Assembly (NCBI RefSeq): GCF_000711715.1
Contig: NZ_JONN01000001.1
Span: 1,984,501 to 2,048,500 of the forward strand
DNA length: 64,000 nucleotides
DNA from: Sphingomonas astaxanthinifaciens DSM 22298
GTDB lineage: Bacteria; Pseudomonadota; Alphaproteobacteria; Sphingomonadales; Sphingomonadaceae
Reading direction: 5' to 3'
A program made the translations under genes and the position numbers. Below are positions 32,705-39,877 of the stretch, piece after piece. The notes beneath the pieces were generated by a model that was given only the letters and a program-made list of their open reading frames with translations, made no database searches and was not told where the DNA came from. How positions within the stretch are numbered: the first letter of the stretch is position 1; each line of letters begins with the position of its first letter.

Positions 32705-33987
32705 AACTGCGCGCGCTCCCCGGCGGTCCGCTCGGCGGCCGCTTCCCCGTGCCGGGCGACAAGAGCCTGTCGCACCGGGCGCTGATTGTCGGCGCGCTGG
32801 CGGCGGGCGAGACCGTCATTGCCGGCCTGCTCGAAAGCGCCGATGTCCTCGCGACCGCCACGGCGCTGCGTGCATTCGGGGCGCGGGTCGAGCATTTCGG
32901 GCCGGGCCGCTGGCGGGTGATCGGGGGCGCATGGCAAAGCCCGGCGGTGCCGATCGACTGCGGCAATAGCGGGACCTCGGTCCGGTTGCTGATGGGCGCG
33001 GCGGCGGGGCAGGGGGTGACCGCGACCTTCATCGGCGACGCCAGCCTGTCGAAGCGGCCGATGCGCCGGGTCAAGGCGCCGCTCGAGGCGATGGGGGCCG
33101 TGTTCGAAGGCGGCGACACGCTGCCGCTGACCGTCTCCGGCCCGGTCTGTCAGGGTATCGCACACGTCAACGTGCCGGCGAGCGCGCAGGTCAAGTCGGC
33201 GGTGCTGCTTGCGGGGCTCGGGACGGAGCAGCCGGTCGAGGTCGCCGAACCGGTGCCGAGCCGCGACCATAGCGAGATCATGCTCGCCGAATTCGGCGCC
33301 GAGGTTATTCGCGAGGGGAACGTCGTGCGGCTGGGCGCGAACAGGCGCCTGTCGGGTCGGCTGGTCACCATTGCCGGCGATCCGTCGTCCGCCGCTTTTG
33401 CGCTTGGTGCGGCGGCTATCGTGCCGGGCAGCGAGGTGACGGTCGAAAACGTGCTTCTCAATCCGCATCGCTCGGGCTTCGTCATGGCCTTGCAGCGGAT
33501 GGGTGCCGACCTCGCGATGAGCAATATCCGCGGCCAGAATGGCGAGACGATCGGCGACGTCCGGGTCCGCTTCGGGCCGCTATTCGGGGCCGAATTCACG
33601 GCCGAGGAAATTCCCTCGATGGTCGACGAGATCCCGATCCTCGCGGTGGTCGCGGCCGGCGCGCGGGGAGAGACCCGGATCGAGGGATTGGACGAGCTTC
33701 GCCACAAGGAAAGCGACCGGCTGGCGCTGATGGCCGAGGGGCTTGCCGCCTGCGGTGTCGAGGCCTTCGCCGAGGGCGACGCGCTGGTGGTGCGCGGCGG
33801 TCCGATCCGCGGCGAGGCCGAGGTTCGCACCGAGGGCGACCACCGGATCGCGATGAGCCACCTCGTGCTGGGACTCGCGGCCGAGCAGCCAGTTACCGTC
33901 GACGAGGCCGAGATGATCGCCACCAGCTTTCCGACCTTCCGCGAGGCGATGCGAGGGATCGGTGCGAAAATCGAGGAAGTGGCATGA
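32701..33987 (+). CDS. aroA: EPSP synthase, class II, probable CTG start
   Basis: Adds enolpyruvate to shikimate 3-phosphate. Landmarks include [67 protein letters not shown] and [25 protein letters not shown] and SAQVK mark the class II (CP4-like) group. Where CP4 has its tolerance alanine, this protein has glycine (GNSGTS). No ATG, GTG or TTG exists at the right place. A CTG overlapping the DAHP synthase stop (CTGA) puts the conserved Lys at position 21, matching the family. The only canonical in-frame alternative, ATG at 32581, would add a 40-residue Arg-rich head. Confidence 0.9.
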
Positions 33988-34895
33988 GCTGGAACAGCTT
34001 TGGACGGCTCTTCCGCTTCACCACCTGGGGCGAGAGCCATGGGCCCGCGATCGGGGTGGTGGTCGACGGCTGCCCGCCGGGCCTCGCGCTCGACGAAGGC
34101 CATGTGCAGGCCTTTCTCGACGCGCGGCGGCCGGGGACGGGCCGGAACGTCTCGCCGCGGCAGGAGCCCGACCGGGTGCGGATCCTGTCGGGGTTGTTCG
34201 AGGGACGTACGACCGGAACGCCGATCGCGATGATGATCGAGAATGTCGACGCGCGGTCGAAGGATTATGCCGGCCTGCCGCCGCGGCCCGGCCATGCCGA
34301 TGCCGCCTATGACGCCAAATATGGCTTCCGCGATCCGCGCGGCGGCGGGCGGGCGAGTGCCCGGGAAACCGCGATGCGGGTCGCGGCGGGCGCGGTGGCG
34401 CGGCTGGTGATCCCCGAGGTGACGATCACGGCCCGCGTGACGGAGATCGGCGGGGAGGCGGACCCGGCCAAGTGGGACTCGCTGCTCGACGAAGCGCGGA
34501 GCAACCAGGATAGTCTCGGCGCGATCATCGAATGCGTCGCCGAGGGCGTGCCCGCGGGCTGGGGAGCGCCCATCTATGCCAAGCTCGATTCCGAGCTGGC
34601 CGCGGCCTGCATGGGGATCAATGCCGTCAAGGGCGTCGAGATCGGCGAGGGCTTCGCCGCTGGCCGGGCGCGGGGCCGGGAGAGCCTAGCCGCGATGCAG
34701 GCCAGCGGGATCGACGGCGGCATCTCGACCGGGCAGCCGATCCGGCTCCGGGTCGCGTTCAAGCCGACCAGCAGCATCGGCATCGGCGGCCGCCACGACC
34801 CTTGCGTAGGGATCCGCGGCGCGCCGGTGGTGGAGGCGATGGTGGCGCTGGTGCTGGCGGACCAGAAATTACTGCACCGCGGGCAGTGCGGCTGA
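33984..34895 (+). CDS. aroC: Chorismate synthase, unusually short
   Basis: FMN-dependent final step to chorismate. The 303-residue product starts [20 protein letters not shown] and has the other signatures: [28 protein letters not shown] and [18 protein letters not shown], ending HRGQCG. It is about 50 residues shorter than typical AroC. Two internal segments are missing in frame: the SNxAGGI-containing stretch before [10 protein letters not shown], and the RxTVD-type stretch between KPTSSI and GRHDPC. All remaining motifs keep order and frame, so this is not a frameshift. Whether the enzyme is fully active is uncertain. ATGA overlap with aroA. Confidence 0.88.
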
Positions 34896-37961: not shown

Positions 37962-38032
37962 CACATATCTCCTTGATTGCCTTGTCCCCTGCGCCGGGCG
38001 TAGCGGCATTTCAAGATGACGGAGGTCGAGTG

Positions 38033-38269
38033 ATGGGCTGGGAAGAACGGGATGGCGCGCTGGTGAAGAGCTTCACCTTCGAGGATTTCGCCACGGCCTT
38101 CGCCTTCCTGACCCGGATCGCCTTCCATGCCGAAAAGGTCGACCACCATCCCGAGTTCACGAGCGTGTGGAACCGGGTCGACTTCCGCCTGACCAGCCAC
38201 GATGCGGGCGGGGTGACCGACCGCGACCATGATTTGGCCGCGGTGATCGACGCCCTCGCCGCTCAGTAG
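38033..38269 (+). CDS. phhB: Pterin-4a-carbinolamine dehydratase
   Basis: Regenerates the tetrahydropterin cofactor used by phenylalanine hydroxylase. The 78-residue product has the family pattern HAEKVDHHPEFTSVWNRVDFRLTSHDAGGVTDRDHDLA, including the active-site histidines of the HHP motif. It is shorter than the 100-120 residues common in the family, because the N-terminal strand and helix are trimmed. GGAGG lies 8 bases before the ATG. Its 3' end overlaps a convergent 50-codon gene by 7 bases; phhA follows 390 bases on. Confidence 0.92.
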   Translation: MGWEERDGALVKSFTFEDFATAFAFLTRIAFHAEKVDHHPEFTSVWNRVDFRLTSHDAGGVTDRDHDLAAVIDALAAQ

Positions 38270-38415
38270 GGCCGGCCGGTCAGCTTCTTGTTCTTGTTGG
38301 CGCCGATCACGGCCCCGACGATCCCGCCGATGATCGGGCCGACGATCGGCAGGGGAATGGCGATGACGGCGCCCACGGCGGCATATTTGGCGATGCGCTT
38401 GCCTTCGTCGGTCAT
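38263..38415 (-). CDS. Small glycine-rich membrane peptide, 50 residues
   Basis: A 50-codon frame between phhB and the phhA leader. The product has a charged head (MTDEGKRIAKYA), a long hydrophobic Gly/Ile/Pro-rich segment with GxxxG-like spacing (residues 13-39) and a basic tail (NKNKKLTGRPY). It resembles small glycine-zipper membrane proteins. The clean head-helix-tail structure and a convergent overlap with phhB support it as real. Function unknown. Confidence 0.6.
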   Translation of the reverse strand: MTDEGKRIAKYAAVGAVIAIPLPIVGPIIGGIVGAVIGANKNKKLTGRPY

Positions 38416-38467
38416 GGAAGTGCGGTCCTTGGCTAGTGTGTTAGGCGACTAAGATGGTACGCAAGGG

Positions 38468-38497
38468 CCTGAATGGAAGGGCCAGCTTCCATTCAGG
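38468..38497. promoter_or_regulatory. Perfect 12-bp inverted repeat upstream of the phhA leader
   Basis: CCTGAATGGAAG, six bases, CTTCCATTCAGG. It is centred about 40 bases before the ATG of the Tyr leader peptide. If transcription starts at that ATG (TTAAGC at 38509-38514 is correctly spaced as a -10), the palindrome would overlap a poor -35 at the usual position of a class II activator site. It could instead be a structured 5' leader of a transcript that starts further upstream. Confidence 0.5.
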
Positions 38498-38521
38498 CGG
38501 TTCGTGCGTTAAGCCGTTCCC

Positions 38522-38581
38522 ATGACCAACCGCGTCGCCAGCACTGCTTATTATTATCCCGCCACGGTGGGGATGAGCTGA
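38522..38581 (+). CDS. Tyrosine leader peptide upstream of phhA
   Basis: A 19-codon frame, MTNRVASTAYYYPATVGMS, with three consecutive TAT codons (38549-38557) and a TGA 78 bases before the phhA ATG. CCCGCC / GGTGGG (38558-38563 with 38566-38571) can form a pause-type hairpin just after the Tyr codons. GGTGGGG (38566-38572) can alternatively pair with CCCCGCC, the 5' arm of the terminator. This is the classical leader-attenuator arrangement. No ribosome site is evident, so it may be leaderless. I know of no described Tyr attenuator at phhA. Confidence 0.75.
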   Translation: MTNRVASTAYYYPATVGMS

Positions 38582-38609
38582 CGCGCGCTTAAAACGCACG
38601 GTTTCACCG

Positions 38610-38642
38610 CCCCGCCAGACCCACGGTCCGGCGGGGTTTTTT
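38610..38642 (+). terminator. Intrinsic attenuator upstream of phhA
   Basis: Stem CCCCGCC-A-GACC / GGTC-C-GGCGGGG with a three-base loop, followed by TTTTTT, ending 17 bases before phhA. It is too strong to be incidental and would stop most transcripts unless the upstream GGTGGGG captures its 5' arm. Confidence 0.85.
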
Positions 38643-38659
38643 GTGTTCGGAGAGTTTCG

Positions 38660-39415
38660 ATGTTCAATGCTTTCGAGGAAATTGGCGGCGGCGGCGGGAG
38701 CGGCTGGGCCGCGCATGTCGTCGACCAGAAGTGGGCCCACTTCACCGCCGAGGATCATGAGACCTGGGACATCCTGTACGCCCGGCAGACGGCGCTGCTC
38801 GACGGGCTGATCGTCGAGCGCTTCTTCGACGGACTGGCGGCGCTGGGCCTGGGCGACGGGGGGATCCCCGAACTCGGTGCGCTGAACGCCCGGCTGCTGC
38901 CGCTGACCGGATGGCGCTGCGTCGCGGTGGCGGGGCTGGTGCCCGACGACTCCTTTTTCGCGATGTTGGCGGCCCGGGTGTTTCCGATCGGCAATTTCAT
39001 CCGGACCCGGGCGCAACTCGACTATCTCGAGGAGCCCGACTGCTTCCACGACATCTATGGCCATGTGCCGATGCTGGCGGACAAGGGCGTGGCCGACGCG
39101 ATGCAGCGCTTCGGCGAGACCGGCGTCAGGGCGATCGCGCAAGGGCAGGGCGACAAGGTCGCGCGGCTTTACTGGCACACGATCGAGTTCGGGCTGGTGC
39201 GCGAGAATGGCGCGGTGCGGATCCTTGGCGCGGGGCTGGCGTCGAGCTTCGGCGAGGCGGCGAAGAGCCTCGACGATCCCGCGATCGAGCGGCGCCGGTT
39301 TACGCCGGAGAGCGCGGTCGCGACGGCTTACCGGCACGACGCGATGCAGCCGCTCTACCTCGTCGCGGACGACATGGGCGCCGTGGTCGCGGCGCTCCGG
39401 GGGCCGTTGCCCTGA
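38660..39415 (+). CDS. phhA: Phenylalanine 4-monooxygenase
   Basis: Tetrahydropterin- and iron-dependent enzyme that converts phenylalanine to tyrosine. The 251-residue product has the facial triad in FHDIYGH (His130, His135) and WHTIEFGL (Glu176), the YARQTALLDG and VFPIGNFIRTRAQLDYLEEPD segments, and no regulatory ACT domain, as is normal in bacteria. Location beside phhB and hppD would suggest catabolism, but the Tyr-codon attenuator before it suggests it is also (or mainly) a source of tyrosine. Confidence 0.96.
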   Translation: MFNAFEEIGGGGGSGWAAHVVDQKWAHFTAEDHETWDILYARQTALLDGLIVERFFDGLAALGLGDGGIPELGALNARLLPLTGWRCVAVAGLVPDDSFFAMLAARVFPIGNFIRTRAQLDYLEEPDCFHDIYGHVPMLADKGVADAMQRFGETGVRAIAQGQGDKVARLYWHTIEFGLVRENGAVRILGAGLASSFGEAAKSLDDPAIERRRFTPESAVATAYRHDAMQPLYLVADDMGAVVAALRGPLP

Positions 39416-39442: not shown

Positions 39443-39877
39443 ATGAGCATCTGGCACAGCGACGACTTCGATCCCGACGCGGCGAGCGCCTTCGGCGACA
39501 GCAGCATGCCCGGGCATCTCGGCATCCGCATCACCGCGCGGGGCGAGAATTGGCTCGAGGCGACGATGCCGGTCGACCGGCGGACGCACCAGCCGTTCGG
39601 GCGGCTGCACGGCGGGGCGAGCGTGGCCCTGGCCGAGACGGTGGCGTCGGTGGCGGGCTTCATGACGGTCGATCCGGCGGAAAAGGCGACGGTCGGGTTG
39701 GAGATCAACGCCAATCATATCCGCCCCGTGCGCGACGGGATCGTGACCGCGCGCGCCATCGCCGAGGCGATCGGACGGACCACACAGGTGTGGACCATCA
39801 GGATCACCGACGAGCGGGACAAGCTCGTCTGCCTGTCCCGGATCACGCTGGCGGTGATCCCGGTCAACCAGGCCTAG
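39443..39877 (+). CDS. PaaI-type hotdog thioesterase
   Basis: Acyl-CoA thioesterase of the hotdog fold, 144 residues. Motifs are TMPVDRRTHQPFGRLHGGASVALAETVASVAG (catalytic Gly-rich HGG and the Glu in LAE) and EINANHIRPVRDG. Members hydrolyse aromatic or isochorismate-type CoA thioesters (PaaI, YdiI, EntH). Starting 27 bases after phhA, it probably shares the phhA transcript, fitting a role in aromatic CoA metabolism. Its stop shares CTAG with the convergent hydrolase. Confidence 0.87.
   Translation: MSIWHSDDFDPDAASAFGDSSMPGHLGIRITARGENWLEATMPVDRRTHQPFGRLHGGASVALAETVASVAGFMTVDPAEKATVGLEINANHIRPVRDGIVTARAIAEAIGRTTQVWTIRITDERDKLVCLSRITLAVIPVNQA

Follow-up and report, generated by a model that had tools for sequence, protein, structure and literature searches.

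The locus examined here lies in a stretch of 64,000 nucleotides (the window), in which phhA, a gene for phenylalanine hydroxylase, stands directly behind a short frame with tandem tyrosine codons and a hairpin followed by a run of T. The question it raises is whether this arrangement couples the expression of phhA to the supply of tyrosine. Comparison of the sequences makes it very probable that a ribosome-mediated transcription attenuator senses charged tRNA-Tyr here and controls a biosynthetic phhA. The features concerned are as follows.

38033..38269, + strand: phhB, pterin-4a-carbinolamine dehydratase, from family matches, with a putative start
38486..38513, + strand: putative promoter-like block, with a -35-like CTTCCA (38486-38491) and a -10-like GTTAAG (38508-38513)
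38522..38581, + strand: leader peptide frame MTNRVASTAYYYPATVGMS, 19 codons plus TGA, from the window sequence
38549..38557, + strand: TAT TAT TAT, three tandem Tyr codons, the proposed tRNA-Tyr sensing site, from the sequence
38566..38572, + strand: antiterminator 5' strand GGTGGGG, within the leader frame, 3' of the Tyr codons and 5' of the stop, from pairing and from compensatory changes in relatives
38603..38616, + strand: antiterminator 3' strand, made up of TTCACCG and of CCCCGCC, which also forms the terminator 5' arm, from sequence and folding
38610..38642, + strand: intrinsic terminator CCCCGCCAGACC-CAC-GGTCCGGCGGGG (38610-38636) with six T (38637-38642), from sequence and fold
38649..38652, + strand: Shine-Dalgarno-like GGAG before phhA, from the sequence
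38660..39415, + strand: phhA, phenylalanine 4-monooxygenase (Biopterin_H), the controlled gene, from NCBIfam and Pfam matches

The leader frame is placed between phhB and phhA on the + strand, begins with the ATG at 38522 and ends with the TGA at 38579-38581. The initial annotation, made from the letters alone, had described it as a 19-codon frame with three consecutive TAT codons, and this description is base-exact with the right coordinates. When 38440-38659 was shuffled 5000 times with dinucleotides preserved, no shuffle placed a terminator in register behind a Tyr-rich frame, and scanning of both strands of the window returned this as the single such place. The promoter-like block, which gave no sigma-70 consensus match in a consensus scan, would place the transcription start close to the leader ATG, so that the RNA would be nearly leaderless; a comparable block is seen by eye upstream of the leaders of relatives (27 relatives compared). 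Just 5' of the leader there is also a perfect 12-bp inverted repeat, CCTGAATGGAAG-N6-CTTCCATTCAGG (window 38468-38497), and because its CTTCCATTCAGG arm shares bases with the promoter-like block, the repeat may represent an operator or a pair of back-to-back promoters.

An intrinsic terminator was found between the leader frame and phhA. Its arms, CCCCGCC (38610-38616) and GGCGGGG (38630-38636), form a stem with one mismatch, A38617 against C38629, between seven outer and four inner pairs; the hairpin alone folds with −23.0 kcal/mol, and 17 bases (38643-38659) separate the T-run from the phhA ATG at 38660. The terminator of these arms with six T residues, 17 bases before phhA, had been proposed at the outset, and it is correct to the base, possible and relevant. 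A consensus terminator scan of 38000-39000, the rule of which demands an unbroken stem and a loop of 3-8, reported none, because the stem is broken by the one mismatch. Over the full 171 nt, folding is only slightly more stable than in shuffled sequences (z −1.88; 9 of 200 shuffles fold as well), and Rfam covariance models gave no match at gathering score between 37500 and 39800; the candidate RF02232 (sX13) was rejected at 23 bits versus a gathering score of 50 (E 0.13).

Conservation of the arrangement was monitored in three sets of genomes. A pattern-based search of 84,980 species, each represented by one genome, yielded 29 phhA loci, of which 18 are from sphingomonads; several genomes of this named set are metagenome drafts, and it overlaps the genus set. 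By the same rule, a Tyr-codon leader with a terminator precedes phhA at 18 of 18 named sphingomonad loci versus 0 of 11 other named loci. Within the genus, 71 genomes were searched and phhA was detected in 65, where the Tyr leader and terminator stand before 66 of the 69 copies, all copies being examined. The three leaderless copies are both those of G285, which has a prephenate dehydrogenase, and the second of G269, a genome that bears the leader on one of its two phhA copies.

The phhA product matches TIGR01267 with an E value of 1.1e-70 (237.7 bits, below the curated cut-off of 264.75) and PF00351 with 4.7e-42. Since phhB lies upstream of the switch, it would not be controlled by it; at 14 of the 18 named sphingomonad loci a phhB-like match precedes the leader in the same orientation, and hppD was detected near phhA at 7 of them, up to 3 kb on each side. 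The initial annotation had named hppD and phhB as nearby degradation genes. The presence of hppD holds, and tyrosine can therefore also be degraded; the function of phhB is pterin cofactor recycling, and it does not count as a degradation gene itself. A hotdog thioesterase frame (window 39443-39877) follows phhA by 27 bases on the same strand and might be co-read with it; it was not found near phhA at the 18 named loci.

As a check on a biosynthetic role of PhhA, the initial annotation had suggested looking in the genome for a prephenate/arogenate dehydrogenase gene. The window genome (2.53 Mb, 99.97% complete) has no match to PF02153, as predicted, whereas 14 of 14 control genomes matched. 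PhhA is therefore the only tyrosine route recognised in it, which supports the suggestion that the organism uses phenylalanine hydroxylation to supply tyrosine; from the family match of phhA and the missing dehydrogenase, the controlled gene would make the very amino acid that is proposed to be sensed. Prephenate dehydratase (PF00800; 14 of 14 controls matched) was likewise not found in the window genome, nor was an SBP_bac_3 domain of the cyclohexadienyl dehydratase kind (12 of 14 controls matched), which we take to be the domain carried by that enzyme. As the dehydratase is also absent, phenylalanine may be imported by the organism. An enzyme that family searches fail to recognise may exist for tyrosine or phenylalanine. 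PF00800 was detected in 14 of the 71 genus genomes. By eye, a chorismate synthase-like protein is encoded at window 33984-34895, though the genome is without prephenate dehydratase and dehydrogenase.

PF02153 exceeded its cut-off in none of the 17 genomes that carry the 18 named sphingomonad loci (two have weak matches below it) and in all four non-sphingomonad genomes tested, of the 11 loci. It did so in four of the 71 genus genomes, with eight more having weak matches below the cut-off. Sixty-one of the 65 genus genomes with phhA have no dehydrogenase over cut-off, and all 61 have the leader; G272 (complete) and G316 (70% complete) go against the rule by having both leader and dehydrogenase. 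At L148 and L185 of G269, a leaderless phhA copy stands beside a prephenate dehydrogenase split over two frames, and a prephenate dehydratase is encoded within a few kb; together these may be an aromatic cluster that was acquired or is decaying. No phenylalanine hydroxylase and no prephenate dehydrogenase was detected over cut-off in G283, G292 and G295 of the genus (99-100% complete; G283 has a weak dehydrogenase match below the cut-off), in three incomplete genus genomes, or in G053 and G129, nearly complete genomes of another genus of the family. The genomes without both enzymes are predicted to be those of tyrosine auxotrophs.

Across the family, 239 genomes were drawn evenly; 202 of them contained Biopterin_H and 210 contained PF02153, the latter over cut-off in 208, and this dehydrogenase search matched 13 of 14 control genomes. 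Upstream regions were scanned at 27 phhA loci from genomes lacking a dehydrogenase over cut-off (not counting the window) and at 57 from genomes with one, strands being assigned by tblastn; three genomes of the latter group (G021, G029 and G149) have one further phhA copy each outside the 57, and at L116 (G079), also among the 57, the match is broken and starts only at residue 87, so that less true upstream sequence is covered. The leader was detected at 8 of the 27 loci, in three genera (g1, g45 and g54), and at 0 of the 57. When the window is included, the counts are 9 of 28 versus 0 of 57 (Fisher p 1.7e-5, with relatedness not controlled). The looser rule that was used for the genus again gave 8 of 27, and 1 of 57; this sole match, L113, was rejected, as it does not resemble the leaders, having a lone Tyr codon and, 46 nt further on, a hairpin that is weak and interrupted. 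The other 19 of the 27 loci are leaderless and all belong to other genera (G010, G018 and G190 among them are under 90% complete), and a short Tyr-rich frame within 900 nt was seen at 1 of these 19 versus 6 of the 57. Loss of the dehydrogenase therefore does not require the leader: in the genomes compared, the leader goes with the loss and is not required by it. L072-L086, L032 and L043 are loci of other family genera without prephenate dehydrogenase, where phenylalanine hydroxylase occurs without a Tyr leader.

The occurrence of a Tyr frame and a terminator before phhA in dehydrogenase-less bacteria suggests that phhA is probably on when tyrosine is short. Transcription would start near the leader ATG. 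When tyrosine is plentiful, the ribosome would clear the three Tyr codons, reach the stop and cover the 3' end of the leader frame; with this end covered, the terminator would form and phhA would not be transcribed. When tRNA-Tyr is uncharged, the ribosome would stall at the Tyr codons, and GGTGGGG could pair with the spacer and the terminator 5' arm before the 3' arm is made. RNA polymerase would then read on into phhA, and PhhA would convert phenylalanine to tyrosine. The parts required, their geometry and their conservation are seen in the sequences, as are the alternative pairing described below and the lack of a recognisable dehydrogenase. From these we infer the stalling, the antitermination and the response to tyrosine.

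The pairing of GGTGGGG (38566-38572) with CCCCGCC (38610-38616), which the initial annotation had put forward, is possible and relevant. The accompanying hairpin of CCCGCC (38558-38563) with GGTGGG can also form in the window, but it is not kept in relatives, as judged by eye. Folding revealed a further pairing available in the window beyond those first proposed, that of CGGTG with CACCG. Among the relatives compared, the 3' end of the leader frame pairs with bases just before or in the terminator 5' arm, and the search for covarying stems in homologues, suggested as a check, gave compensatory changes in this frame-end helix: GCGGTGG/CCACCGC, GAGGTTG/CAACCTC, GAGGCTG/CAGCCTC, GCGATGG/CCATCGC and CAGGTG/CACCTG. 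The frame end paired with its own spacer and 5' arm yields a mean of −18.4 kcal/mol versus −15.7 with swapped partners (0 of 20000 permutations as low), and helices of seven out of seven pairs occur in 39 of 68 leaders versus at most 25 in 2000 swaps; in these swap tests the best register was picked in both real and swapped pairs, and common descent was not controlled. RNAalifold on 18 leaders was uninformative, since leaders whose terminator is shorter by one C were misaligned, and a covariance model was therefore not built.

The two ribosome states were compared in a folding model, in which the stall is set at the first Tyr codon and a ribosome reach of 11 nt is assumed; 68 of the 69 leaders were used, L176 being dropped as its terminator arm was not matched. 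With the ribosome stalled and the terminator 3' arm absent, the 5' arm in the window is paired with a probability of 1.00 (−21.5 kcal/mol). When the ribosome has instead reached the stop, the arm is mostly free (0.28), and a structure of −3.2 kcal/mol is left. For the full-length RNA at equilibrium the terminator wins in both ribosome states (1.00 for the stalled state in the window), and only 8 of 68 leaders give a value below 0.5 when the ribosome is stalled. As the terminator wins at equilibrium despite the stalled ribosome, the switch would have to be kinetic. The E. coli trp leader, taken as a control, behaves like that of the window in this model, also at equilibrium, and the equilibrium result is therefore no argument against attenuation; unlike both, the E. 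coli pheL control retains its antiterminator at equilibrium.

When stalled, 31 of the 68 leaders, including that of the window, have the 5' arm paired with a probability above 0.5; the other 37 have 0.5 or less, and there the conserved helix abuts the arm more than it occupies it. For about half of the leaders, where the compensated helix lies immediately 3' of the stalled ribosome and ends against the base of the terminator without competing with its stem, it is conceivable, though unlikely, that antitermination is not by exclusive pairing, and that the stalled ribosome docks at the hairpin base or RNA polymerase, or that the lowest pairs next to the U-run are denied. The compensated helices provide material on the distance from a terminator within which a helix can still defeat it. 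Docking or denial, if true, would represent another mode of operation for a leader-peptide attenuator.

Like the trp attenuators of E. coli and S. meliloti (trpL-trpE), the phhA leader combines a short frame, tandem codons for the regulated amino acid and alternative antiterminator and terminator pairings. It differs from them in having Tyr and not Trp codons, in controlling a monooxygenase better known from degradation, in keeping no pause hairpin among relatives (by eye), and in the position of the antiterminator 5' strand inside the leader frame. According to passages of PMC7298713, the S. meliloti trpL RNA starts at its own ATG, as seems likely for the phhA leader, and acts in trans. Attenuation could accordingly be real at phhA with the leader serving mainly as a trans-acting peptide or small RNA, in the manner of rnTrpL/peTrpL in Sinorhizobium meliloti. 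Such a role is very unlikely and a purely trans-acting RNA was rejected, as the peptide is variable in sequence and length outside the Tyr codons and the pairing region, and the attenuator anatomy is in cis to phhA.

The composition of the leaders bears on which residue is sensed. Homologues keep the Tyr codons along with the frame, the point on which the initial annotation had made its proposal depend. Tyr accounts for 178 of 966 codons (18.4%) in the last 14 codons of 69 distinct leaders and is the commonest residue; it is written as 156 TAT and 22 TAC, and therefore the amino acid is kept and not the letters. Within this stretch, 68 of the 69 leaders have at least one Tyr (in L163 the Tyr codon stands 15 codons from the stop, and this leader was scored as having none). 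The last Tyr is exactly seven codons from the stop in 53 of the 68, and the spacing from stop to stem is 25-35 nt. It is less probable still that the leader senses slow translation generally, or proline or some other residue, in place of tRNA-Tyr. Such a reading could draw on Pro, found in the last 14 codons of 45 of the 69 leaders and often directly after the Tyr run, and on Ala, which at 17.7% of codons and 69 of 69 leaders is as widespread as Tyr. However, 24 of the 69 leaders have no Pro in these codons, the position of the last Tyr is fixed, Tyr is otherwise a rare residue and Ala is common in G+C-rich genomes; proline sensing was therefore rejected.

Least probable, and also rejected, is the reading that the hairpin simply ends transcripts arriving from upstream (phhB or read-in), that the short frame in front of it is fortuitous and that phhA is expressed by leakage: phhB does lie upstream on the same strand and the terminator is strong, but the 66 of 69 genus loci share the Tyr frame with its spacing to stop and stem and keep the pairing of the frame's 3' end, and the 17 bases from the T-run to the ATG are too short for a promoter.

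The proposed attenuator sensing charged tRNA-Tyr was also compared with reported control of aromatic genes. Of the sources consulted, PMC1173090 is presumably Song et al. 2005 and PMC2965389 presumably Naville and Gautheret 2010. The aroR leader before aroF of Corynebacterium glutamicum is alike in being an aromatic leader that acts by attenuation and contains a Tyr codon (Phe-Tyr-Phe); as far as sections of a review go, it responds to Phe, and tyrosine supply is without effect (PMC11802643). Parts of the same source describe leader-peptide control of E. coli pheA and pheST, and parts of PMC8632094 that of aroF by the uORFC-13-1 motif (Acholeplasma); these have Phe codons and other genes. As regards phhA in gammaproteobacteria and others, portions of PMC1173090, PMC5343134 and PMC3223726 report transcription-factor control as a degradation gene, by PhhR/TyrR (possibly Lrp/AsnC); PMC1173090, in the portion concerned, lists putative attenuators before tyrA and describes phhA as PhhR-controlled. 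A term search of the main text of PMC2965389 returned neither tyrosine nor phhA. Within the open-licence PMC literature, including PMC9100643, the portions covered gave no tyrosine-responding leader-peptide attenuator and no phhA attenuator. According to parts of the GapMind paper (PMC7311316), phenylalanine hydroxylase supplies tyrosine in Dyella japonica, Legionella and Echinicola, the first two of which appear to be without prephenate/arogenate dehydrogenase. Those hydroxylases are biosynthetic, as phhA appears to be here; they belong to other lineages, and the parts concerned mention no attenuator.

By its anatomy and conservation, the element before phhA is a leader-peptide attenuator, a known kind of control, in which the amino acid would here be tyrosine and the gene phhA. 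A gene usually filed under phenylalanine breakdown would thereby come under a biosynthetic control logic, which would provide a sequence signature of biosynthetic phenylalanine hydroxylase. It would do so in a bacterial group where most genomes are without recognised enzymes for both tyrosine and phenylalanine, and where the mode of supply would be one familiar from animals. If docking or denial were true for the leaders named above, its setting would be bacteria that may depend, like animals, on imported phenylalanine for all of their tyrosine.
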